From Cryptosporangium phraense (lineage in GTDB: Bacteria > Actinomycetota > Actinomycetes > Mycobacteriales > Cryptosporangiaceae): 64,000 nucleotides of DNA. Positions within the stretch are counted from its first letter, which is position 1, and each line of letters starts with the position of its first letter. Made by a program: the position numbers and the translations under genes. Positions 6,702 through 62,745 of this stretch are shown in pieces. Below the pieces are notes generated by a model that was not told the origin of the DNA, did not search any database, and saw only the letters and a program-made list of their open reading frames with translations. The DNA lies in NCBI RefSeq assembly GCF_006912135.1, contig NZ_VIRS01000010.1, positions 62,001 through 126,000 on the forward strand, in the 5' to 3' direction.

Positions 6702-6995
6702 ATGGACTACCTCACCGCGATCGTGTTCGGCGCGATCATCGGCATCGTCGCGCGCATCCTGCTGCCGGGACGGCAGCCGATCGGCATCATCCTCACCGTG
6801 CTGATCGGTATGGGCGCCGCCGTCGCCGGCACCTGGGCCGCCGACCGCTGGGACATCCACGGCAGCGGCTCCCTCATCGTGCGCGGCCACCACTACGACT
6901 GGCTGGTCCTCGGCGTCCAGGTCGGCATCGCCGTCGTCGGGGTCGCGATCGCCGCCCTGCTGGCCAAGGCGTTCAGCACCGACGACGAGCGCTAG
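6702..6995 (+). CDS. GlsB/YeaQ/YmgE family stress-response membrane protein
   Basis: A 97-residue protein with the family pattern (transglycosylase-associated protein family, PF04226): a first helix IVFGAIIGIVARILLPGRQPIGIILTVLIGMGAA and a last helix VGIAVVGVAIAALLAKA. A GGAGG site lies 8 nt before the ATG. Family members are small inner-membrane proteins induced by stress in E. coli and Lactococcus; biochemical role unknown. The central hydrophilic loop with HYDW is longer than in the shortest members. Confidence 0.82.
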   Translation: MDYLTAIVFGAIIGIVARILLPGRQPIGIILTVLIGMGAAVAGTWAADRWDIHGSGSLIVRGHHYDWLVLGVQVGIAVVGVAIAALLAKAFSTDDER

Positions 6996-7011
6996 GCCCG
7001 ACGGCGGAGTC

Positions 7012-7044
7012 CCAACCGCGCGCCAACGCCCGTATGCGTAGCCT
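7012..7044 (+). promoter_or_regulatory. Promoter of the cox cluster with tandem CCAAC operator
   Basis: CCAAC occurs at 7012-7016 and again at 7023-7027 (11-bp repeat, one helical turn), followed after 11 bp by TAGCCT at 7039-7044, and the MoxR ATG starts 6 nt later (leaderless). The same CCAAC-N6-CCAAC-N11-TANNNT layout occurs upstream of coxS (10369-10401), so it is probably the operator of the cluster's GAF/winged-helix activator, placed over the -35 region. Confidence 0.65.
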
Positions 7045-7050
7045 CGTCGA

Positions 7051-7920
7051 ATGGAGTTCCGTTCCGCGGCCGACGTCGCTACCCGCCTGGGCGAGACCGG
7101 CTACCTGTGTGACGACGCGCTCGCCACGGTCACGTTCCTCGCGCTCGGCATGCGCCGCCCGCTCCTCCTCGAGGGCGAGCCCGGCACCGGCAAGACCGCG
7201 CTGGCCGAGGCGATCGCGCAGACCCTCGACCTCCCGCTGATCCGCCTGCAGTGCTACGAGGGCATCGACGCCACCCAGGCGCTCTACGACTGGGACTTCC
7301 CGCGCCAGATCCTGCACCTGCGCGCGCTCGAGGCGTCCGGTGGCGTCGACGCCGAGCAGGCCGAGAAGTCGCTCTACGACGAGCGGTTCCTGCTCGCCCG
7401 CCCGGTGCTGGCCGCCCTCCGCCAGGCGCCCGCCGTCCTGCTGGTCGACGAGGTCGACCGCGCCGACGACGAGTTCGAGGCGTTCCTGCTCGAAGTGCTC
7501 TCCACCTACCAGGTCAGCATCCCCGAGTTCGGCACGGTCACCGCCGAGACGCCCCCGGTCGTCCTGCTCACCTCCAACCGCACCCGCGAACTCCACGACG
7601 CGCTCAAGCGCCGCTGCCTCTACCACTGGATCGACCACCCCGGGCTGGAGCGCGAGATCGAGATCGTCCGCTCCCGCGCCCCGGAGGTCTCGGCCGCGCT
7701 GAACCGCCAGGTCGTCACCGTCGTCCAGACGCTGCGCGACGCCGACCTGCAGAAGCCGCCCGGCGTCGCCGAGACCCTCGACTGGGCCCGCGCCCTGCAC
7801 CTGCTCGGCGTGGCCGCGCTCGACCTCGAGTCGGCCGCCGCCACCGTCGGCGCCCTGGTCAAGTACCGCGAGGACGCCGAGAAGGTCCGGCACGCGCTGG
7901 ACCGCCTGCTCACGGCATGA
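7051..7920 (+). CDS. MoxR-family AAA+ ATPase (CoxD-like)
   Basis: A 289-residue AAA+ ATPase with Walker A GEPGTGKT at 42-49, Walker B LLVDEVDRADD around 130-140, a sensor-1 LLTSNRTRE segment and a C-terminal helical lid. MoxR proteins act with von Willebrand A-domain partners as chaperone machines; in cox clusters the CoxD ATPase with CoxE is needed for assembly of the [CuSMoO2]-type or related cofactor of CO dehydrogenase. The downstream coxE start overlaps this stop as ATGA. Transcription likely begins at the ATG, with TAGCCT 6 nt upstream. Confidence 0.9.
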   Translation: MEFRSAADVATRLGETGYLCDDALATVTFLALGMRRPLLLEGEPGTGKTALAEAIAQTLDLPLIRLQCYEGIDATQALYDWDFPRQILHLRALEASGGVDAEQAEKSLYDERFLLARPVLAALRQAPAVLLVDEVDRADDEFEAFLLEVLSTYQVSIPEFGTVTAETPPVVLLTSNRTRELHDALKRRCLYHWIDHPGLEREIEIVRSRAPEVSAALNRQVVTVVQTLRDADLQKPPGVAETLDWARALHLLGVAALDLESAAATVGALVKYREDAEKVRHALDRLLTA

Positions 7921-9059
7921 CCGAACTGTCGGCGTTCGCCGATGCGACCAGACCGGCCCGGCCGGGCGAGGAGATCCTGCTCGGCTTCACGGTCGCGCTG
8001 CGCGCCGCCGGGGTCGCGGTCACCCACGACCGCGCCCAGGCCTACCTCGAGGCCGTCGCGCTGGCCGGGATCGCGAACGCCCGCGCGGCCTACTACGCCG
8101 GCCGGGCCACGCTCTGCGGCTCCCCGGCCGACCTCGAGCGCTACGACCAGGTCTACGAGGCCTACTTCGACCCCCGCGCCGGGCTGCCCCGCCGTCGTCA
8201 GGCCCCGCCGGGCGTCCCCACCGCGTCGACGTCGATCCTGCCCGAGTCGGAGGCCGGCGGGGCCGGCGAGGCCGACGACGAGGAGATCGTGCGCGCGCGG
8301 GCGAGCGCGGCCGAGGTCCTGCGTCAGCGGGACATCGCGACGCTGACCGCCAACGAGAAGGCTCGCCTGGCCGAGATGTTCGCGACGCTGTCGGTCCGTC
8401 CGCCGCTGCGGCGCTCCGGCCGCCTGCGCCCCTGGCACCGCGGCTCGCTCGACGCCTCCCGCACGCTCCGCGCCTCGCTGCGCCGGATGGGCGAGCCCGC
8501 CCGGCTCGAGTTCCGCCGCCGCGCCCTGCGGGCCCGTCCGGTGGTGCTGCTCGTCGACGTCTCCGGCTCCATGAGCTCCTATGCGGACGCTCTGCTGCGC
8601 CTCGCCCACCGCCTGGGGACGTCCGGCGGGCCGGTCGAGACGTTCGCGCTCGGTACCCGGCTGACGCGGCTGACCCGGGCGCTGGCCGCGCGGGACGCCG
8701 AGCGGGCGCTGATCGCGGCCGGGGAGACGGTGCCGGACTGGTCGGGCGGCACCCGGCTGGGCGAGACGCTCCAGGCGTTCGTCGACCGCTGGGGCCGGCG
8801 CGGTCTGGCCCGGGGCGCGGTCGTCGTCGTGTTCTCCGACGGCTGGGAACGCGGGGACGCCTCGCTGCTGGCCGAGCAGATGGCCCGCCTGCACCGGATC
8901 GCCCACTCCGTCGTCTGGGTCAACCCGCACCGCGGGAAGGCGAACTACGAGCCGGTCCAGCTCGGCATCCGGGCCGTGCTCCCGCACGTGGACGCGTTCG
9001 TCGCGGGCCATTCTCTCGCCGCATTTGCGGAGCTGCTGGACGTCATTTCCCGCGCCTGA
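7917..9059 (+). CDS. coxE: CoxE-like VWA domain protein
   Basis: A 380-residue protein of the CoxE family (PF05762). A helical N-terminal part (1-200) precedes a von Willebrand factor A domain whose MIDAS motif DVSGSMS begins at Asp214; the second MIDAS Thr and the FSDGW segment follow. Co-translated with the MoxR ATPase through an ATGA overlap. Known role in the family: with CoxD, maturation of the molybdenum-copper site of aerobic CO dehydrogenase. In form II clusters the exact cofactor served is not established. Confidence 0.88.
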   Translation: MTELSAFADATRPARPGEEILLGFTVALRAAGVAVTHDRAQAYLEAVALAGIANARAAYYAGRATLCGSPADLERYDQVYEAYFDPRAGLPRRRQAPPGVPTASTSILPESEAGGAGEADDEEIVRARASAAEVLRQRDIATLTANEKARLAEMFATLSVRPPLRRSGRLRPWHRGSLDASRTLRASLRRMGEPARLEFRRRALRARPVVLLVDVSGSMSSYADALLRLAHRLGTSGGPVETFALGTRLTRLTRALAARDAERALIAAGETVPDWSGGTRLGETLQAFVDRWGRRGLARGAVVVVFSDGWERGDASLLAEQMARLHRIAHSVVWVNPHRGKANYEPVQLGIRAVLPHVDAFVAGHSLAAFAELLDVISRA

Positions 9060-9064
9060 GTGCC

Positions 9065-9080
9065 TGTGACCGCAGTCACT
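9065..9080. promoter_or_regulatory. Crp-like palindrome before the GAF regulator
   Basis: TGTGA-CCGCAG-TCACT, matching the Crp/Fnr consensus TGTGA-N6-TCACA in 9 of 10 specified positions. It begins 6 bp after the coxE stop and lies 51-66 bp before the regulator ATG, upstream of a possible -10 (TAACGT, 9091-9096). A related palindrome lies at the coxS promoter. Confidence 0.45.
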
Positions 9081-9131
9081 TCTTCGGTGTTAACGTTCGC
9101 CGATTGCACCGGAGGAACACTGGAGTTCCGG

Positions 9132-10367
9132 ATGGCCGACGAGGATCTGCAGGCGCGTCGCGTCGACGTGATGTGCGCCTGGACGACGTTCATCGAGCAC
9201 GGCGACGTCGCCGCGGCCGTACGTCCGGAGATCCTCCTCAGCTGGGGACGCGCCCGGAAGGCGCGGGTCTCCACCGAGGTGGAGGCCGCGCCGATGGCCG
9301 ACGAGTCGGAGACCGACGCGGTCTGGCGCGGCAGCCCCCTGCAGGCCGCGGTCGAGGCGGTCGGGTCCGAACTACGACGGACGGCCGAGGACGGCGACCT
9401 CGTCGTCGCGGTCACCGACCCCAACAGCCGCATCCTCTGGACGTACGGCGGGCGGGTGATGCGGAACAAGGCCGAGTCCGTGGCCTTCCTCCCGGGCGGG
9501 CGCTGGGACGACGAGTCGGTCGGCACCAACGCGCTCGACCTGGCCAACCGCCTGGACGCCCCCTCGATGGTGTTCAGCGCCGAGCACTACGCCCGGGGCC
9601 TGGGCAACTGGGTGTGCTGGGCGGCTCCGGTGCACGACCCGGTGTCGGGCCGGCGGCTCGGCGTCCTCGACCTGTCGACGACCTGGGACCGCACGCACCC
9701 GATCGGGCTGGCCACCGCCCGGGTGATGGCCCGGCTGATCGAGACGGCCATCCCGTACTCGCACGAGCACCCGTCGGTGCGGGCCGAGGGCACCGGCGAG
9801 CCCGGCCTGGTGATGACGCTGCTGGGCACGGCCGAGACCTGGCTCGACGGTGCCCGGCTGCTGCTCAACCGGCGGCAGACCGAGATCCTCGCGCTGCTGG
9901 CCCTGCACCCCGAGGGGCTGTCGCTCGAGCAGCTGCACGCGATGGTCTACGGCGACCAGGCGGTCACGTTCTCCACGCTCAAGGCCGAGGTCAGCCACTT
10001 GCGCCGGGCGCTCGGCGGCCAGCTCGCCTCGCGTCCCTACCGGCTGTTGATGCCGACCGCGACCGACGTCCAACAGGTACTGGCCCTGATCCGGGGCGGC
10101 CACGTGGTGGCCGCGGTCGAGGCCTACGGCGGGGACCTGCTGCCGGGGACGAACTCGCCCGCGCTGTCGGAACTGGCCGACTACGTCGCGGTCGCGCTGC
10201 GCGAAGCGCTGCTGGCCGACCCGCAGCCGGACGCCGTCCTGCGCTACAGCCAGGAGCTCGCGCCGTACGACCGGGAGGTCGTGGAGTCCTGCCTGTCCCG
10301 GCTCGACGGCGCCCCGCACCCGACGATCCCGCTACTCAAAGGCCGCCTCGCGGTCGCGGACAGGTAG
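9132..10367 (+). CDS. GAF domain/winged-helix activator of the cox cluster
   Basis: A regulator of about 411 residues from the ATG at 9132. The N-terminal 210 residues resemble the sensor half of AcoR-type activators (LLSWGRARKARV, then a GAF region with WDDESVGTNALDLA and WVCWAAPVHDPVSGRRLGVLDLS), but instead of a sigma-54 AAA+ domain it ends in a winged helix (LLLNRRQTEILALLALHPEG ... FSTLKAEVSHLRRALGG) and a helical region (YGGDLLPGTNSPALSELAD) resembling the OmpR-like plus BTAD end of SARP regulators. SARPs bind direct repeats spaced by 11 bp, which matches the CCAAC repeats in the two cox promoters. Start: GGAG lies 6 nt before this ATG; a GTG at 9060 is in frame but adds a non-conserved leader. 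Confidence 0.75.
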   Translation: MADEDLQARRVDVMCAWTTFIEHGDVAAAVRPEILLSWGRARKARVSTEVEAAPMADESETDAVWRGSPLQAAVEAVGSELRRTAEDGDLVVAVTDPNSRILWTYGGRVMRNKAESVAFLPGGRWDDESVGTNALDLANRLDAPSMVFSAEHYARGLGNWVCWAAPVHDPVSGRRLGVLDLSTTWDRTHPIGLATARVMARLIETAIPYSHEHPSVRAEGTGEPGLVMTLLGTAETWLDGARLLLNRRQTEILALLALHPEGLSLEQLHAMVYGDQAVTFSTLKAEVSHLRRALGGQLASRPYRLLMPTATDVQQVLALIRGGHVVAAVEAYGGDLLPGTNSPALSELADYVAVALREALLADPQPDAVLRYSQELAPYDREVVESCLSRLDGAPHPTIPLLKGRLAVADR

Positions 10368-10368
10368 C

Positions 10369-10401
10369 CCAACCGTCCGCCAACCCTCGCGCTCCTACGG
10401 T
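10369..10401 (+). promoter_or_regulatory. Promoter of coxS with tandem CCAAC operator
   Basis: CCAAC at 10369-10373 and 10380-10384 (11-bp repeat) followed by an 11-bp gap and TACGGT at 10396-10401. The geometry is identical to that upstream of the MoxR gene at 7012-7044. Transcription would start near 10408, giving a leader of about 22 nt with a GGAGGGGAG ribosome site. Confidence 0.65.
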
Positions 10402-10429: not shown

Positions 10430-10900
10430 ATGACCCGGATCAGCCTCACCGTCGACGGCGCGAAGGTCTCCGACGACGTCGAACCCCGCACGCTGCTGGT
10501 GCACTACCTGCGCGAACAGCTCGGGAAGACCGGCACCGTCGTCGGCTGCGACACCAGCAACTGCGGCGCCTGCACCGTCCACCTCGACGGGCGCAGCGTG
10601 AAGTCGTGCAACGTGCTGGCGGTCCAAGCCGACGGCGCCGAGGTGACGACGATCGAAGGACTCGCGAACAACGGTCAGCTGCACCCGGTGCAGGAGGCCT
10701 TCCGGGAGTGCCACGGTCTGCAGTGCGGCTACTGCACGCCGGGGATGATCATGCAGTCGGTCGACCTGCTGAAGGAGAACCCGAACCCGAGCGAGGAGGA
10801 GATCCGGCTCGGGCTCGAGGGCAACCTCTGCCGCTGCACCGGCTACCACAACATCGTGAAGGCCGTGCAGTACGCCTCGGAACACGGGGGTGCGCAGTGA
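10430..10900 (+). CDS. coxS: CO dehydrogenase-type small [2Fe-2S] subunit
   Basis: A 156-residue iron-sulfur subunit of the xanthine oxidase family. The plant-type ferredoxin cluster ligands are Cys40, Cys45, Cys48 and Cys60, and the second, molybdopterin-proximal [2Fe-2S] cluster is ligated by Cys99, Cys102, Cys134 and Cys136 (QCGYCTPGM and CRCTGYHNI). It relays electrons from the CoxL molybdenum site to FAD in CoxM. GGAGGGG precedes the ATG. The stop overlaps the coxL start as GTGA. Gene order S-L-M is that of form II clusters (form I is M-S-L). Confidence 0.93.
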
Positions 10901-13359
10901 CCGCCCTCGACGACCGGCCCGCCGCCGAGATCGGGCGCGACCGGCGTCGCAAGGAGGACCAGCGGCTGATCACCGGCCGCACCCGCTGGACCGACAACAT
11001 CGTGCTGCCGGGCATGCTGCACCTGGCGATGGTGCGCAGCCCGTTCGCCCACGCGCGGATCGTCAGCATCGACACGTCGGCCGCGAAGGACGCGCCGAAC
11101 GTCGTCGCGGTCGTCACCGGGAACGACGTCGCGGAAGAGCAGGGCGGGCTGCCGAACGCCTGGCCGATCACCCCGGACCAGGTCGCGCCGGTGCACCCGC
11201 CGATCGCCGTCGACCGGGCCACGTTCGCCGGGGAGATCGTCGCGGTGGTCGCCGCGCGCAGCGCGGCCGAGGCCCGCGACGCGGCCGAGCTGGTCGACGT
11301 GGAGTACGAGGAGCTGCCGGCCGCGCTCGACCTGAAGGAGGCCGCGGCCGACACCGTGCTGGCCCACCCCGACCTGGGGACGAACAAGTCCGCGCTCTGG
11401 GTGTTCGACTCGGGCGAGGCCGGCACCGGCAGCCCGATCGAGGAGGCCATCACCAAGGCCCGCACCGACGGGATCGTGATCGAGCGGGAGTACCGGCAGC
11501 AGCGGCTGATCCCGGCGTTCATGGAGCCGCGCTCGTGCGTGGTCGACCCGACCAGCGAACAGATCACGATGTGGTCGGCCACCCAGATCCCGCACATCCT
11601 GCGGTTCCTGCTGGCCGCGGTGACCGGCACGCCGGAGTCCAAGATCCGGGTCATCGCGCCGGACGTCGGCGGTGGCTTCGGCGGCAAGCTGCAGTCGACG
11701 CCCGAGGAGTTCATCGTCTTCCTGCTGGCCAAGCGGCTGGGCAAGCCGGTGAAGTACACCGAGACCCGGTCGGAGTCGCTGGTCTCCGCGCACCACGGCC
11801 GCGACCAGTGGCAGAAGCTGACGCTCTCGGCCGAGCGCGACGGCACGGTGACCGGGCTCAAGGTCGAGCTGCTGGCCGACCTGGGCGCGTACGTGGCGCT
11901 GGTCGGCGGCGGGGTGCCGGTGCTGGGTGCGTTCATGTTCAACGCGATCTACAAGTTCCCCGCGTACCACTTCGCCTGCCAGACCGTGCTGACCAACAAG
12001 ACCTGGACCGACGCCTACCGCGGCGCCGGCCGGCCCGAGGCCACGTTCGGCATCGAGCGGATCATGGACGAGCTGGCGGCCGAGGTCGGCGTCGACCCGC
12101 TGGCGATCCGGGAGAAGAACTGGATCAAGCACGAGGAGTTCCCGTTCACGACCGTGGCCGGGCTGACGTACGACTCGGGCAACTACGAGGCCGCGACCGC
12201 ACGGGCGCGCGAGATGTTCGAGTACGACGCGCTCCGGGCCGAGCAGCAGAAGCGCCGGGAGTCCGGTGACCCGGTGCAGCTCGGGATCGGCATCTCGACG
12301 TTCACCGAGATGTGCGGGCTGGCGCCGTCGCGGGTGCTCGGCACGCTGGACTACGGGGCCGGGGGCTGGGAGGCCGCGTCGGTGCGGATGCTGCCGACCG
12401 GCAAGGTCGAGGTCGTCACCGGCGCGTCGCCGCACGGCCAGGGCCACGAGACCGCGTTCTCGCAGATCGCCGCCGACCGGCTCGGCGTCCCGTTCGAGGA
12501 CGTCGAGGTGCTGCACGGCGACACCCAGGTGTCGGTGAAGGGGCTGGACACCTACGGGTCGCGGTCGCTGGTCGTCGGCGGTGAGGCCGTCGTGCGGGCC
12601 GCCGACAAGGTGATCGAGAAGGCCAAGGTGATCGCCGCGCACCTGCTGGAGGCGTCCGAGGGCGACATCGAGTTCTCGGCCGGCCGGTTCTCGGTCCGCG
12701 GGACCGACAGCGGGGTCGGGATCGCCGAGGTCGCGCTGGCGACGTTCGCCGCGCACAACCTGCCCGACGGCGTGGAGCCGTCGCTGGATTCGGACGCGAC
12801 CTACGACCCGGTGAACTTCAGCTTCCCGCACGGGACGCACCTGTGCGCGATCGAGGTCGACACCGAGACCGGGGCGCTGCGGATGCGCAAGTACGTGGCC
12901 TGCGACGACATCGGGAACATCATCAACCCGCTGATCGTGTCCGGGCAGGTGCACGGCGGGCTGGTGCAGGGGATCGCCCAGGCGCTGTGGGAAGAGGCGG
13001 TGTACGACGAGTCGGGGACGCTGGTGAGCGGGTCGTTCGTCGACTACCTGCTGCCGACGGCGGCCGACACGATCAGCTTCGACCTCGACCACACGACGAG
13101 CCCGGCCACCAGCAACACGCTGGGGACGAAGGGCGTCGGGGAAGCCGGCACGATCGCGTCGACGCCCGCGGTCGTGAACGCGGTGGTGGACGCGGTGCGG
13201 CACCTGGGGGTGCACGACATCCAGATGCCGTGCACTCCGGAGCGGGTCTGGAAGGCGATCAACGGAGCGTCGGCCCACACGGAGACCGAGGGCGCGGCGA
13301 TGCCGCACTTCGACTCCTCGGAACCCGGTGAGGACAGCACGGAAGGGGCGGGCCAGTGA
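10897..13359 (+). CDS. coxL: Form II CO dehydrogenase-like molybdenum large subunit
   Basis: An 820-residue molybdopterin-binding subunit (aldehyde oxidase/xanthine dehydrogenase family). GGGFGGK is at 258-264; the active-site loop reads AYRGAGR at 373-379, the signature of form II enzymes, not AYxCSFR, which carries the copper-binding Cys of genuine form I CO dehydrogenase. The catalytic Glu lies in VGEAG at Glu749. The last 25 residues form an acidic tail. GTG start coupled to coxS (GTGA) and stop coupled to coxM (GTGA). Form II enzymes have been linked to slow CO oxidation in a few bacteria and to other hydroxylations in many; the true substrate here is open. Confidence 0.9.
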
Positions 13360-14198
13360 TTCCGGCGCAGTTCGACTACGTGGCTCCGGCCACTCTGGAC
13401 GAGGCCGTGGCCGCGCTGTCGCAGCACGGCGACGACGCGAAGATCCTGGCCGGTGGGCAGAGCCTGCTCCCGGTGCTGCGGATGCGGCTCAACGCCCCGG
13501 AGATCGTCATCGACCTGGGCCGGATCCCGTCGCTGCAGGGCATCCGCGACGACGGCGACGCGATCGTGATCGGCGCGATGACGCCGCACCACGTCGTCGG
13601 GTCCGACCCGCTGGTGGCCGAGCACGCGGCGCTGATCTCGAAGGCGGTGACGCACCTGGCCGACGCCCAGGTGCGTCACCGGGGGACGTTCGGCGGGGCG
13701 CTGGCCCACGCCGACCCGGCCGGTGACCTCGGTGCGCCGGTGCTGGCGCTGGACGGGCAGTTCGTGATCACCGGCCCGGGTGGTACCCGGACGGTGCCGG
13801 CGTCCGAGTTCTTCGTCGGGCTGTTCGAGACGGCGATCCAGGACGACGAGATCCTCACCGAGGTGCGGATCCCCAAGCACACCGGCTGGGGAGCGCACTA
13901 CGAGAAGTTCGTGCGGATCGCGCACCAGTGGCCGATCGTGGCGGTGGCGGCGACGGTCCGGTCCGACGGGGGTTCGCTCGCGGAGGCGAAGATCGGGCTG
14001 ACGAACATGGGGTCGACGCCGTTGCGGGCCTCGGCGGTGGAGGCCGCTCTGGCCGGAGGTTCTGACGCCTCTTCGGCGGCTGCCCTGGCCGCCGAGGGGA
14101 CCAGCCCGCCCTCGGACCTGAACGGGGACGCCTCCTACCGGCAGCACCTGGCCCGGGTGCTCACCCGGCGGGCCGTGCTCGCGGCGGCGGGAGCGTGA
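13356..14198 (+). CDS. coxM: CO dehydrogenase-type FAD subunit
   Basis: A 280-residue FAD-binding subunit of the xanthine oxidase family. The FAD pyrophosphate loops are visible as AGGQSLLPVLRMRL near 30-43 and as RGTFGGALAHADPAGD near 109-124, followed by the CO dehydrogenase flavoprotein C-terminal domain. It takes electrons from CoxS and passes them to the respiratory quinone pool. Start GTG overlaps the coxL stop; coxG begins 4 nt after its stop. Confidence 0.92.
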   Translation: MIPAQFDYVAPATLDEAVAALSQHGDDAKILAGGQSLLPVLRMRLNAPEIVIDLGRIPSLQGIRDDGDAIVIGAMTPHHVVGSDPLVAEHAALISKAVTHLADAQVRHRGTFGGALAHADPAGDLGAPVLALDGQFVITGPGGTRTVPASEFFVGLFETAIQDDEILTEVRIPKHTGWGAHYEKFVRIAHQWPIVAVAATVRSDGGSLAEAKIGLTNMGSTPLRASAVEAALAGGSDASSAAALAAEGTSPPSDLNGDASYRQHLARVLTRRAVLAAAGA

Positions 14199-14202
14199 GC
14201 GT

Positions 14203-14946
14203 ATGGAGCTGACCCACCACTTCCACGTCCCGTCCGGCGTCGACGAGACCTGGACGCGGTTCCAGGACGTCGCCGGGCTGGCCGGGTGTTTCCCGGGGGC
14301 GTCGGTGACGTCGGTGGAGGGGGACGAGTTCACCGGGTCGTGCAAGGTGAAGCTCGGGCCGATCGCGCTGGTCTACAACGGGACCGGGACGTTCACCGGA
14401 CGGGACGAGTCGGCGCATCGGCTGGTGGTCGAGGCCAAGGGGCGGGACAAGCGCGGGAACGGGACGGCGTCGGCGACGGCCGCGGTGACGATGTCGGCGG
14501 GGTCCGAGGGTGGGACCGACGTCGACGTGGTGACGGATCTGACCGTGACCGGGAAACCGGCGCAGTTCGGGCGGGGGTTGATCCAGGACGTCTCGGACAA
14601 GCTCCTGGGCCAGTTCGTGACGTGCCTCGAACAGCAGCTGGCCTCGGACGGGGCCGGCCCCGAGGCGGGGCCGGCCCCGCCGGGGCCCGAGGATGCGTCG
14701 GACGGGTCGGCCTCGTCGGACGGGTCGGCCTCGTCGGGCGAGTCGGCCTCGGCGGGCGCGGCCGGCGGCGGGGCGGTTCGTCCGAGCGTCGCCACCGGAA
14801 CGGCGGGGCGGCCGCCGGACGACGCGTTGGACCTCGGGGCCACCGTGCTCCCGGTCCTGGCCCGGAACTACTGGAAGCAGGCGCTGGCCGGCGTCGTCGC
14901 CGTGCTGCTCCTCATCCGGCTCGTCCGCCGCCGCACCCGCGGCTGA
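14203..14946 (+). CDS. coxG: CoxG-like SRPBCC membrane anchor protein
   Basis: A 247-residue protein: an SRPBCC domain of the CO dehydrogenase subunit G type (1-150; FHVPSGVDETWTRFQDVAGLAGCFPGA), a low-complexity Gly/Ser/Ala/Pro linker (150-215) and one C-terminal membrane helix (QALAGVVAVLLLIRLV) with a basic end. Known role of CoxG: recruits the CO dehydrogenase to the cytoplasmic membrane and, in mycobacteria, delivers menaquinone. The linker contains three tandem 18-bp DNA units (14701-14754). It is the last gene of the cluster. Confidence 0.87.
   Translation: MELTHHFHVPSGVDETWTRFQDVAGLAGCFPGASVTSVEGDEFTGSCKVKLGPIALVYNGTGTFTGRDESAHRLVVEAKGRDKRGNGTASATAAVTMSAGSEGGTDVDVVTDLTVTGKPAQFGRGLIQDVSDKLLGQFVTCLEQQLASDGAGPEAGPAPPGPEDASDGSASSDGSASSGESASAGAAGGGAVRPSVATGTAGRPPDDALDLGATVLPVLARNYWKQALAGVVAVLLLIRLVRRRTRG
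14701..14754 (+). repeat. Three tandem 18-bp units in the coxG linker
   Basis: Units at 14701-14718 and 14719-14736 are identical (GACGGGTCGGCCTCGTCG) and 14737-14754 differs at 3 positions. They encode DGSASS, DGSASS and GESASA in the flexible linker; length variation here would change only the tether to the membrane helix. Confidence 0.8.
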
Positions 14947-17711: not shown

Positions 17712-19508
17712 TCAAATCGTGCTCTCGATGATCTCCCGGCGATCGTCGGGGAGGCGGCGGGTGCGCAGCGTGCGGTCGAGGTGCGCCAGCAGGGGCAGCA
17801 CCACCCGCCGGCTGGTGCCGAGCGCCTGACGGGCCTGGCTGGTGGTGAACGGCTGGTCGAGACCGGCCAGCACCTCGACGGCCCGGTCGTCGGCGCCGGG
17901 AAGCAGGACGACGGTGTCGGCCACCCGGAGGATCGCGCCGGCCCGTTCGGCGGCCGCGAGCTCGCGCGGGCCGAGGCCGAGCTGGGTGAGCCGGCCCGCC
18001 TCCGGAGCCCGGAAGGGGACGTCGGTGAGCTCGTCGGCCAGCGCGTCGACGGCCGCGGCGACGGGCCGGGGGAGCGGCGGAGGGGCGTCCCGGTCGACGA
18101 CCCTACCGTCACGGACGGTGAGCGGAGCGGCGATCAGAGCCAGCACCACGCTGCGGTCCGGGAGCTCGAGCGCGGCCCGGGCCTCGTCGATCGTCGGGCC
18201 GGCCTCCAGCGTGCCGGTCGCGCGGTGCTCGGCGAGCTGTTTCCGGAGACGTTCGCGCAGTTCGGCCGCGTGGTCGGCGTCGACCAGCCAGTCACCGGCG
18301 CGGAGCGCGCCGGCCGGGGGCATGGCGCCCAGCCCGGCGAGCTCGGCCGCGCGGACGAGCTTGCGCTGCCGGAGCAGGTGCTCGCCGAAGCCGCTGCCGA
18401 CGGTCGGGCCGAGCTCGGCCAGCTCGGCCGCGCGGGCCGCGGCCGCACCGCGCCGGGCGAGCGCCGGGGGATCCGTGTCGAGCACGGTGACCCGCCCGAT
18501 CACCCGGTGCGCGCCCGGATCGCGCAGCAACGCGCGGTCGCGGGCGGCCAGCGGCAGCGCCGTCCCGAGCGTCAGCCGTGCGTGTTGGAGTCCGTCCCCG
18601 TGGTTCGCGTCGTCCCGGAGGGGGCGGACCCGGACCGGGACGGCGGCCGAGCCGAGGTGGAGGACGAGTTCGGCCGGGGCGTCGCCCAGGTCGTCGCCGT
18701 CGACCCGCACGTCGATCAGCGCGGTGGACGTCCACCGGCCCGGCGTCAGCAGCGCGTCGCCCCGGTGGACGTCGTCCTTGTCGACGTTGCGCAGGTTGAC
18801 GGCCACCCGGGCGACCGCGCTCACCGACTCGTGCGCCACCCCGAGCGCCTGGAGCCCGCGGACGACCGCGCTCCGCCCGTTGAGCGTGAGCTCGTCGCCG
18901 ACCCGCATCGTGCCCGCGGTGAGCGTGCCGGTCACCACGGTGCCGCTGCCCCGGATCGTGAACGAGCGGTCGACCCAGAGCCGCACCGGCGCGGTCACGT
19001 CCGGCTCCGGCAGTCCGCCGACCAGCTCGGCGAGCCGCGCCCGCAGCGAGTCGAGGCCCTCGCCGGTCGCGCCGCTCACCGCGACCGCGGGCAGGCCGGC
19101 CAGCGAGGTGCCGCGCAGCCGCGAAGCGACCTCGGCCACGACCGGCGCCGGGGGAGCCAGGTCGCTGCGGGTCACGGCCAGCACCGCGTGCGACACCCCG
19201 AGCGCGTCCAGCGCCGCCACGTGCTCCGCGGTCTGCGGCATCCACCCCGAATCCGCCGCCACCACCAGCAGCACGGCCGGGACCGGGCCCACGCCGGCCA
19301 GCATGTTCGGCACGAACCGCTCGTGCCCGGGCACGTCGACGAACGCCACGTCGGCGCCGCCGGGCAGCGTCGTCCAGGCGAACCCGAGGTCGATCGTCAT
19401 GCCCCGGCGCCGTTCCTCGGCCCAGCGGTCCGGCTCCATCCCGGTCAGCGCGCGGACCAGCGTCGACTTCCCGTGGTCGACGTGCCCGGCCGTCGCTAGG
19501 ACGTGCAT
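17712..19508 (-). CDS. selB: Selenocysteine-specific elongation factor SelB
   Basis: A 598-residue translational GTPase. G1 is GHVDHGKST at 8-16, G2 lies in the [12 protein letters not shown] segment, G3 is DVPGHERF and G4 appears as TRSD (NKxD replaced, as in SelB). Domains II and III follow, then C-terminal winged-helix repeats (from about 370 to the end) that bind the SECIS RNA. It brings Sec-tRNA to ribosomes stalled at a UGA followed by a SECIS hairpin; the matching target here is the formate dehydrogenase gene at 24.7-28.0 kb. It starts inside selA, overlapping by 13 bp. Confidence 0.95.
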
Positions 19509-20800
19509 CCGTCCTCCGCGACCGCACGGACGGCGGCGAGCAGAGCGTCGTCCGACGAAGGAGGGATGCAGCGCAGGTCGAGCAGGAGAGCACCGCGCTC
19601 GACGCGGCCGACCACCGGCGGGTCACCCGCCCGCAGGGCCCCGGCCCAGGCCGCGGGGAGCGCGACCGCGGCCGACGGGAGCACGACGCCGGGCGCGCCC
19701 CCGCCGCCGACGACGCCGTCGCTCGGCCCGGCCTCGGCCGGGATCCCGTCGGCGCGCAGCGCGGCGGCCAGCGCCTCCGACCGGGACCGGAGCTCGGCCG
19801 GGTCCGCGTGCAGGGCCAGGTGGGTGGGGGTCGACGGGCCGGTCAGCGTGGCCTCCAGCGCGGCGAGCGTGAGCTTGTCGACGCGCAGCGCCCGGGCCAG
19901 CGGGTGGCGGCGCAGTCGCTCCACGATCGGTTCGGTGCCGAGCAGCAGGCCGGCCTGCGGGCCGCCGAGCAGCTTGTCGCCGCTCGCGGTCACCAGCGCG
20001 GCGCCTTTCCGGAGCGCGGTGGTCGCGTCGGGCTCGGCCGGCAGCAGCGCGTCCGGGGCCAGCAGACCCGACCCGATGTCGACGACGACCGGCACGTCCA
20101 GCGAGGCCAGCGCCTCGACGTCCACATCGGCGGTGAAGCCGGTGACCACGAAGTTCGACGGGTGGACCTTGAGCACGAAGCCGGTGTCGGGACCGATCGC
20201 GGCCCGGTAGTCGGCCAACGTCGTCCGGTTGGTCGTGCCGACCTCGCGGAGCCGTGCGCCGGTGGATTCCAGCAGGTCGGGCAGGCGGAACCCGTCGCCG
20301 ATCTCGACCAACTCGCCCCGGCTGACGATGATCTCCCGGCCCGCGGCCAGCGCGGTCGCGGCCAGCACGAGCGCGGCCGCGCCGTTGTTCACCACGTGCA
20401 CCGCGCCCGCGTCCGGCACGGCCGCGGCGAGCGCGGCCAGGGTGGCGCGCCCGCGCCGCGCCCGCCGTCCGGTCTCGAGGTCCAGTTCGACGTCGGTCGC
20501 GCCGGCCGCCGCCCGGAGCGCCTCGACCGCGGCCTCGGACAGGACGGCCCGGCCGAGGTTCGTGTGGAGGACGACGCCGGTCGCGTTGAGGACCGGCCGC
20601 AGGGAGGTCGCGCGGTGGGGGAGGCTCGCGGCGGCGGCGGGGACCACGTCCTCGGGGGAGAGGTCGCCGGCCCGGGCCCGGGACTGGGCGTCGACGACGG
20701 CGGCTTTGACCCGGTCGCGTCCCAGGCGGGTGACGGCGGGGGCCAGCCGAGGGTCGGCCAGCGCCGCGTCGGTGCGGGGGATGAGGCGGCGAGGGTCCAT
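19496..20800 (-). CDS. selA: L-seryl-tRNA(Sec) selenium transferase
   Basis: A 434-residue PLP enzyme that converts seryl-tRNA(Sec) to selenocysteyl-tRNA(Sec) with selenophosphate. The N-terminal tRNA-binding region (1-65) is followed by the conserved [14 protein letters not shown] segment and the PLP lysine in [22 protein letters not shown] precedes it. It is encoded directly downstream of its tRNA substrate gene (77 bp) and overlaps selB by 13 bp, so selA and selB are an operon, possibly read through from the tRNA. Confidence 0.95.
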
Positions 20801-61929: not shown

Positions 61930-62745
61930 ATGACCCAGCTCACAGAGCCAGTGATTGCGCTACGGGCCGCCACGAAAGTCTTTACGAATCGGGACGGCGA
62001 GAGGCACACCGCGATCCGGGACGTCACGTTCGACGTCCACGCGGGGGAGTTCGTCAGCGTCGTCGGCCCGACCGGGTGCGGGAAGTCGACGACGCTCGGG
62101 CTGATCTCCGGGCTCGCTCCGGCGACGTCCGGGACCGTCGAAGTGGCCGGGGCTCCGGTGCGGGAGATCCCGTCCGGGCTCGGGTACATGTTCCAGCAGG
62201 ACGCCGTGCTGCCCTGGCGGACCGTGCTCGACAACGTGGCGGCCGGGCCGCGGTACCGGGGTGCGTCGCGGGCTTCGGCCCGGTCGGCGGCGGGCGAGTG
62301 GGTGGCCAAGGTCGGGCTGGCCGGTTTCGAGAAGTACTACCCGCACCAGTTGTCGGGCGGGATGCGCAAGCGGGTCGCGCTGGCCCAGACGCTGGTGAAC
62401 GAGCCCGGGATCCTGCTGATGGACGAGCCGTTCGGGGCGCTCGACGTCCAGACCCGGGAGCACATGCAGGACCTGCTGCTCTCGCTGTGGGCCGAGAACC
62501 GGGCCGCGGTGGTGTTCGTGACCCACGACCTGACCGAGGCGATCGCGCTGGCCGATCGGGTAGTCGTGATGACGGCCGGGCCGGCGACGGTGAAGGACGT
62601 CGTGCCGGTGGGGCTGGAGCGGCCGCGGACGGTCGAAGAGATCCGGCTCGAGGAGTCGTTCCTCGAGGTGTACCGCCGGGTGTGGGACTCGCTGCGTGAA
62701 GAGGTCGAGATCACCCGGGCGAGGGGAGCGGCTCGTGTCGCCTGA
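61930..62745 (+). CDS. NitT/TauT-type ABC transporter ATP-binding protein
   Basis: A 271-residue ATPase with Walker A GPTGCGKST, Q-loop MFQQDAVLPWRTV, signature LSGGMRKRVALAQ, Walker B ILLMDEPFGALD and H-loop VTHD. This composition is typical of the SsuB/TauB/NrtD importer class for organic sulfonates, nitrate, aromatic acids or pyrimidine precursors. Overlaps the permease start by 11 bp. The start lacks a strong ribosome site. Confidence 0.92.
   Translation: MTQLTEPVIALRAATKVFTNRDGERHTAIRDVTFDVHAGEFVSVVGPTGCGKSTTLGLISGLAPATSGTVEVAGAPVREIPSGLGYMFQQDAVLPWRTVLDNVAAGPRYRGASRASARSAAGEWVAKVGLAGFEKYYPHQLSGGMRKRVALAQTLVNEPGILLMDEPFGALDVQTREHMQDLLLSLWAENRAAVVFVTHDLTEAIALADRVVVMTAGPATVKDVVPVGLERPRTVEEIRLEESFLEVYRRVWDSLREEVEITRARGAARVA

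Follow-up and report, generated by a model that had tools for sequence, protein, structure and literature searches.

A 64,000-nucleotide (nt) stretch of Cryptosporangium phraense contig NZ_VIRS01000010.1 (forward strand, positions 62,001 to 126,000; here called the window and numbered from its first letter) contains a form II cox cluster in which one promoter architecture, CCAAC-N6-CCAAC-N11-TANNNT, occurs before moxR and again before coxS. From comparison of related sequences, we consider it highly likely that both CCAAC pairs are operators of one local activator, the protein encoded at 9132-10367. The two cox sites are probably the whole regulon of this activator.

Two matching promoter sites and their conservation

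The moxR promoter site (7012-7044) reads CCAAC-CGCGCG-CCAAC-GCCCGTATGCG-TAGCCT and the coxS promoter site (10369-10401) reads CCAAC-CGTCCG-CCAAC-CCTCGCGCTCC-TACGGT, both on the + strand and both exactly as in the pattern. The first-pass annotation had described the same CCAAC pair, with a period of 11 and the same 11-bp distance to the -10 element, at these two genes, and this description is exact in both cases. Operator 1 spans 7012-7027 (repeats at 7012-7016 and 7023-7027) and is followed by the -10 element TAGCCT at 7039-7044; operator 2 spans 10369-10384 (repeats at 10369-10373 and 10380-10384) and is followed by TACGGT at 10396-10401. With +1 assumed 7 nt past the -10 hexamer, the first repeat occupies -39 to -35 and the second -28 to -24, and operator 1 is thus predicted to cover -39 to -24 of the moxR promoter. 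Because the assumed +1 is the A of the moxR ATG at 7051, 7 nt past the -10 element, the moxR message is probably leaderless. Among 67 matching moxR promoters of relatives, the first ATG or GTG, counted irrespective of frame, starts 7 or 8 nt past the -10 element in 55. No conserved -35 hexamer shows in the N6 gap, the expected place of a -35 element, in the per-position promoter profile, which includes two moxR rows (L149, L159) where the coxS site was taken instead.

The full pattern is rare. It matched twice in the window and not at all in 100 dinucleotide shuffles, and across the whole genome (8,463,372 bases, 87 contigs) it occurred without mismatch at the two cox places only. CCAAC-N6-CCAAC without the -10 part showed no genome-wide enrichment (11 places versus 19 for the reversed pattern), so the -10 element is needed to define the site. 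When N10 or N11 was allowed, each of the four genomes of the genus had exactly two sites, both in the cox cluster, and the reversed pattern had none in these genomes; the concern that the sites might abound at unrelated genes was thereby answered. Within the genus the spacers drift, and the CCAAC boxes and the TA...T of the -10 element are kept.

We then compared orthologous clusters. A profile of 11 aligned regulators provided the best 80 of 180 loci found, mostly from Nocardioides, with some from Marmoricola, Pimelobacter, Aeromicrobium and unnamed Nocardioidaceae. After exclusion of L139 (the same record as L122) and L151 (the same strain as L150), and addition of eight other loci and four of the genus, 90 loci remained, among which metagenome bins may be near-copies and L129 and L208 are one genome contributing different genes. 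A promoter was not counted if the gene was absent from the DNA compared, below 60% identity (moxR, coxS) or near a contig end (17 moxR, 16 coxS), and a match required at most one mismatch within 300 bp upstream, with a -10 distance of 9-13 allowed.

The pattern matched at all 74 coxS promoters (60 perfect) and at 67 of 73 moxR promoters (61 perfect). By comparison, the reversed pattern matched at 4/74 and 5/73 of the same promoters, repeat periods of 8, 9, 10, 12, 13 and 14 gave at most one match each, and none of 1,470 dinucleotide shuffles matched. The site was also absent upstream of the other genes of the cluster: coxE (0/76), the regulator gene (0/88), coxL (0/73), coxM (0/65) and coxG (0/62). 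The period of 11 is rigid across relatives. The identical 11-bp distance to the -10 element noted earlier holds for the window's two promoters and does not extend to relatives, where it is nearly always 10 or 11 bp (coxS: 10 bp in 54, 11 bp in 20; moxR: 11 bp in 47, 10 bp in 19, 12 bp in one). Of the 67 moxR promoters that match, 48 have TAGCCT as the -10 element, and at coxS the relatives' commonest form is TAGCGT (46/74).

Presence of the operator follows presence of the regulator. A close CoxL is encoded in 82 of 296 genomes of the class, and the best 30 of the CoxL loci were compared, from genomes that overlap those of the 90-locus footprinting. Each of the 15 loci with CoxL of at least 79% identity belongs to a genome that has a regulator orthologue (E value no worse than 1e-140); the other 15, with CoxL of 75% or less, come from genomes without one at 1e-60. 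In the first set every coxS promoter carries the operator (15/15; 13 without mismatch and two with one, in both cases GCAAC in the first box); in the second none does (0/15), and the best candidate within 800 bp had at least three mismatches. In two genomes (G103, G289) the operator is present though regulator and coxL stand on different contigs. The earlier proposal, that one putative activator serves both promoters from tandem repeats at the -35 position, thus gains support from both conservation and co-occurrence.

The regulator and its modelled fold

The regulator (411 residues, + strand) combines, according to sequence matches and a structure model, an N-terminal GAF sensor of DhaR type with a C-terminal, SARP-like DNA-binding half. 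Residues 28-206 match the NCBIfam model DhaR at 6.1e-14 (51.2 bits versus a cut-off of 551), and the solved DhaR N-domain was matched both by sequence and by fold (4lrz_H, Z 11.8). A Pfam scan found neither an AAA+ domain nor a receiver domain in the protein. No Pfam or NCBIfam model reached its cut-off on the window regulator; Pfam Trans_reg_C came to 22.4 bits versus 26.2, and BTAD is not among the 12 Pfam families matched by any of 17 family members scanned.

The predicted fold of residues 218-411, an OmpR-type winged helix followed by BTAD-like helices, points to a known class of activators. Its best solved match is AfsR in the afsS promoter complex (8hvr_I, Z 14.8, root-mean-square deviation (rmsd) 4.0, 191 residues aligned), with which it aligns over AfsR 17-241, that is, over the OmpR-type DNA-binding domain and then the BTA domain. 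The next match is EmbR (2ff4_A, Z 12.9, rmsd 4.6, 188 aligned), and Foldseek agrees. Identity to AfsR and EmbR in the fold alignment is about 20%; sequence searches of solved structures found DhaR and not AfsR, which was reached by fold search only. The C-terminal part of the model has pLDDT values of 62-95 in blocks of ten, with 50 at the last residue. The modelled recognition helix comprises residues 280-294 and includes K284 and H289.

AfsR is reported to bind side by side on two 11-bp direct repeats that span -40 to -19 and to engage sigma region 4; in its recognition helix, R92 makes a base contact at -38 and R87 a backbone contact (PMC10936776). The same report describes a rule for SARPs, namely direct repeats with an 11-bp period whose 3' repeat stands about 8 bp from the -10 element (PMC10936776). 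The fold therefore favours, at the level of a model, the protein that had been singled out as candidate binder, given that AfsR recognises direct repeats of 11 bp at the -35 position. We call the regulator SARP-like rather than SARP because its DNA-binding and BTA-type part is C-terminal, behind the GAF module, and not N-terminal as in the SARP family. GAF–SARP-like regulators are a widespread, apparently uncharacterised actinobacterial family; we found no description of the family or its operator in open-access full texts, a scope that leaves subscription journals mostly outside.

Variants of the proposed operator and the form II cluster

The C. phraense genome also encodes a paralogue of the regulator (36% identical), and directly 3' of it, before an aldehyde dehydrogenase gene, stands GCAAC-N6-GCAAC-N11-TAGCGT. 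The paralogue belongs to a second branch of the family, whose members go with GCAAC-N6-GCAAC-N11-TANNNT, in many cases ahead of an aldehyde dehydrogenase gene. A gene-blind search of the 296 genomes with SCAAC-N6-SCAAC-N11-TANNNT found the motif in 108 genomes and the reversed pattern in 26. The neighbours of 30 motif loci from this search were examined against those of 29 control loci. A regulator homologue lay within about 1.5 kb at 23/30 motif loci and two more had an aldehyde dehydrogenase only; an aldehyde dehydrogenase lay within 1.5 kb at 14/30. Five of the 30 lacked both, and in two of these five a contig end cuts the locus short. Among the control loci, 0/29 had a regulator homologue or an aldehyde dehydrogenase.

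Outside the genus, the CCAAC/CCAAC sites of L122-L129 stand before moxR or coxS. At L130 (genome G231, 6785-8771), a CCAAC-type site precedes an aldehyde dehydrogenase and a DUF779 gene, and a 60% identical regulator is encoded about 6.4 kb away; from this example, the operator base seems to go with the regulator rather than with the enzyme. At L131 (G062) no moxR, coxS, aldehyde dehydrogenase or regulator gene lies near the CCAAC pair, and the same holds for the CCAAC pairs of the low-G+C genome G288.

Further variants were seen. L132 (G342) has three GCAAC-type operators, at 6880, 8513 and 10785, around a regulator and an aldehyde dehydrogenase. GCAGC-N6-GCAGC-N11-TANNNT pairs stand beside regulator homologues in L035 (2774), L047 (2828) and L050 (647). 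In L056 (13166) and L057 (11643), CCAAC-type pairs several kb from the regulator have GATAGT or GATACT 10 bp further on, and in L056 TAGTTT also occurs at 12 bp past the pair.

The first base of the box parallels two residues of the recognition helix: K284 and H289 occur in 91/91 CCAAC-class regulator rows, and R284 and R289 in 36/36 GCAAC-class rows, with class C assigned to the L136-L215 regulators by membership rather than per site and one gene (L027, L058) counted twice. By S-x-L-R spacing, and not by alignment, H289 was mapped to AfsR R92 and K284 to AfsR R87. In the regulator tree, built from a 63-regulator subset with a few class labels set by hand, the window's genus is nested inside a Nocardioides branch. 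This position suggests that the cox cluster passed horizontally between the genus and the Nocardioides group.

In the window, the cluster runs on the + strand in the order moxR, coxE, regulator, coxS, coxL, coxM, coxG. It comprises a moxR/coxD-type AAA+ ATPase (289 residues, 7051-7920), a coxE-type VWA protein (380 residues, 7917-9059; VWA_CoxE, 1e-52), the regulator, the [2Fe-2S] small subunit CoxS (156 residues, 10430-10900), the form II large subunit CoxL (10897-13359), the medium subunit CoxM, which binds flavin adenine dinucleotide (13356-14198), and CoxG (14203-14946). The regulator gene lies 72 bp past coxE without an operator site of its own, and for this reason it is probably transcribed within the moxR operon.

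The enzyme itself may not be a carbon monoxide (CO) dehydrogenase. Form II is defined by the AYRGAGR motif and the gene order S-L-M, and its role is called unclear (PMC13203968). CoxL bears this mark, with AYRGAGR at residue 373 and the order coxS-coxL-coxM. It scored 648 bits against the model for the aerobic CO dehydrogenase large subunit (TIGR02416; cut-off 991, not reached), and its best NCBIfam model was glyceraldehyde dehydrogenase alpha (663 bits; cut-off 790, not reached). Form II 'Cox' here need not oxidise CO, and that inducer and substrate are of the aldehyde type is only a guess, if a reasonable one. Recoding of an in-frame TGA in CoxL matches was considered and rejected: at the five loci checked, the TGA is at the C-terminal end in all five and was read as the natural stop; the CoxL match of L239 has a second TGA, at the extreme upstream end of the sequence examined. 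Elsewhere in the window (17712-20800, - strand), two adjoining genes, judged by eye from the list of open reading frames, resemble selB and selA, which serve selenocysteine insertion.

Proposed mechanism, alternatives and significance

We propose the following mechanism. The N-terminal DhaR-type GAF module would sense a small molecule, and the SARP-like half, with its winged helix and BTAD-like helices, would bind as two side-by-side protomers, one per CCAAC, in successive major grooves. Bound at about -39 to -24, the protein would replace the missing -35 element and bring RNA polymerase, carrying the housekeeping sigma factor, to the TANNNT -10 element. Because the N6 gap lacks a conserved -35, the site suits an activator that acts in place of this element, in the manner of AfsR. 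Operator 1 would drive moxR-coxE-regulator, hence the maturation genes together with the regulator, resulting in positive autoregulation, and operator 2 would drive the enzyme genes in coxS-coxL-coxM-coxG.

Several observations weigh against this proposal or its extension to the wider family. Six of the 73 moxR regions fail to match (L137, L164, L167, L175, L203 and L205, with L175 missing by two), and the homologues L037, L040, L041 and L049 have no site in the short DNA searched. The genomes without a regulator orthologue have a more diverged CoxL, and descent and regulator are thus partly confounded in the presence/absence comparison. Confidence in the structure model is low for residues 1-223. 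On the 63-regulator tree the C/G class changes once, with full support, which makes the change one event and not independent replication. Six CCAAC-class promoters (L167, L178, L187, L197, L208 and L212) carry GCAAC in one of the two boxes, as does a further one in G103; owing to these mixed promoters, the base code is not strict. Finally, an operator over the -35 region can also serve a repressor, as in Afipia carboxidovorans, where CoxC, acting at direct repeats that cover the -35, is reported to repress its cox promoter.

Because of the single tree event and the looseness of the code, we advance a broader reading only tentatively, with doubt slightly prevailing. In this broader reading, GAF-SARP fusions would be a large actinobacterial family of one-component activators responsive to aldehydes or alcohols, in which K284/H289 reads CCAAC and R284/R289 reads GCAAC; two paralogues per cell would run largely insulated regulons with the same promoter geometry, and the form II 'CO dehydrogenase' of the clade would be an aldehyde oxidoreductase rather than an enzyme of CO.

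Among the alternatives to a local activator, the one that survives best is that the same protein on the same repeats represses, blocking sigma at the -35 until released by its ligand. The overlap of the site with the -35 region and the CoxC precedent favour this arrangement, which we nevertheless regard as unlikely: an activator seems needed where the N6 gap has no conserved -35 hexamer, and fold and geometry match AfsR, an activator. It is more improbable still that the repeats are bound by some other, unlinked transcription factor, with the local regulator acting at different sites. Binding by the local regulator is a prediction, and none of the 88 regulator genes has such a site directly upstream, which leaves room for another factor; against it stand the co-occurrence with the regulator (present at 15/15 loci with it, absent at 15/15 without), the paralogue in the same genome with its own adjacent variant site, and the homologues at 23/30 sites found gene-blind.

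The nearly fixed position relative to the -10 element could also indicate that the CCAAC pair is part of a promoter read by an alternative sigma factor and not an operator. We give this very little credence, since the pair is a tandem repeat with an 11-bp period, occurs among the 30 cox loci only where the genome has the regulator, changes its first base with the regulator clade, and numbers only two sites per genome in the genus. Chance, or a recent copy of one promoter, has in its favour that the window holds two instances only; it was ruled out by the shuffles, the reversed patterns and the wrong repeat periods, and by the persistence of the sites across many species with drifting spacers, and we count it as refuted.

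A local activator of the proposed kind would share parts with several known systems. The predicted fold of its DNA-binding half is common to the SARPs AfsR of Streptomyces coelicolor and EmbR of Mycobacterium tuberculosis, and the repeats follow the SARP rule, with a period of 11 over the -35 and 10 or 11 bp after the 5-mer, equal to 8-9 bp after the heptamer. SARPs activate through contacts with sigma region 4 and the polymerase core. In contrast to SARPs, the window regulator carries its DNA-binding half at the C-terminus, after a GAF module, the repeat is CCAAC or GCAAC, and the neighbours are metabolic genes. With DhaR of Escherichia coli it shares the GAF sensor module and that module only; no sigma-54-type AAA+ domain was matched here. 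The modelled winged helix has the same fold as that of PhoB and OmpR (PhoB on the pho box, 1gxp_B, Z 8.7, rmsd 2.0, 84 aligned). In PhoB/OmpR response regulators, tandem direct repeats replace the -35 element. The window regulator differs from them in the BTAD-like helices behind the winged helix and in the GAF sensor.

The known regulators of CO dehydrogenase genes considered here are built differently. CutR of Mycobacterium sp. JC1 is likewise described as an activator, in an organism with duplicated clusters that each have an active promoter; however, it belongs to the LysR family, and its site, near -60, is an inverted repeat containing a T-n12-A motif (PMC12609908). CoxC and RcoM also act from direct repeats at cox promoters, those of CoxC overlapping the -35, but they have a LytTR domain and three 8-bp repeats, and CoxC is a membrane-bound, CO-responsive repressor (PMC11347149). 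The mechanism appears to be of the SARP/OmpR kind, and the fusion, the repeat and the targets appear to be new.

Taken together, these results link a widespread regulator family to a precise predicted operator, and the sequence class of this operator goes with residues of the recognition helix. With this correspondence, regulons could be deduced from genome sequences. Moreover, relatives of the regulator often stand beside aldehyde dehydrogenases, which may offer a route to the inducer and to the true substrate of the enzyme.

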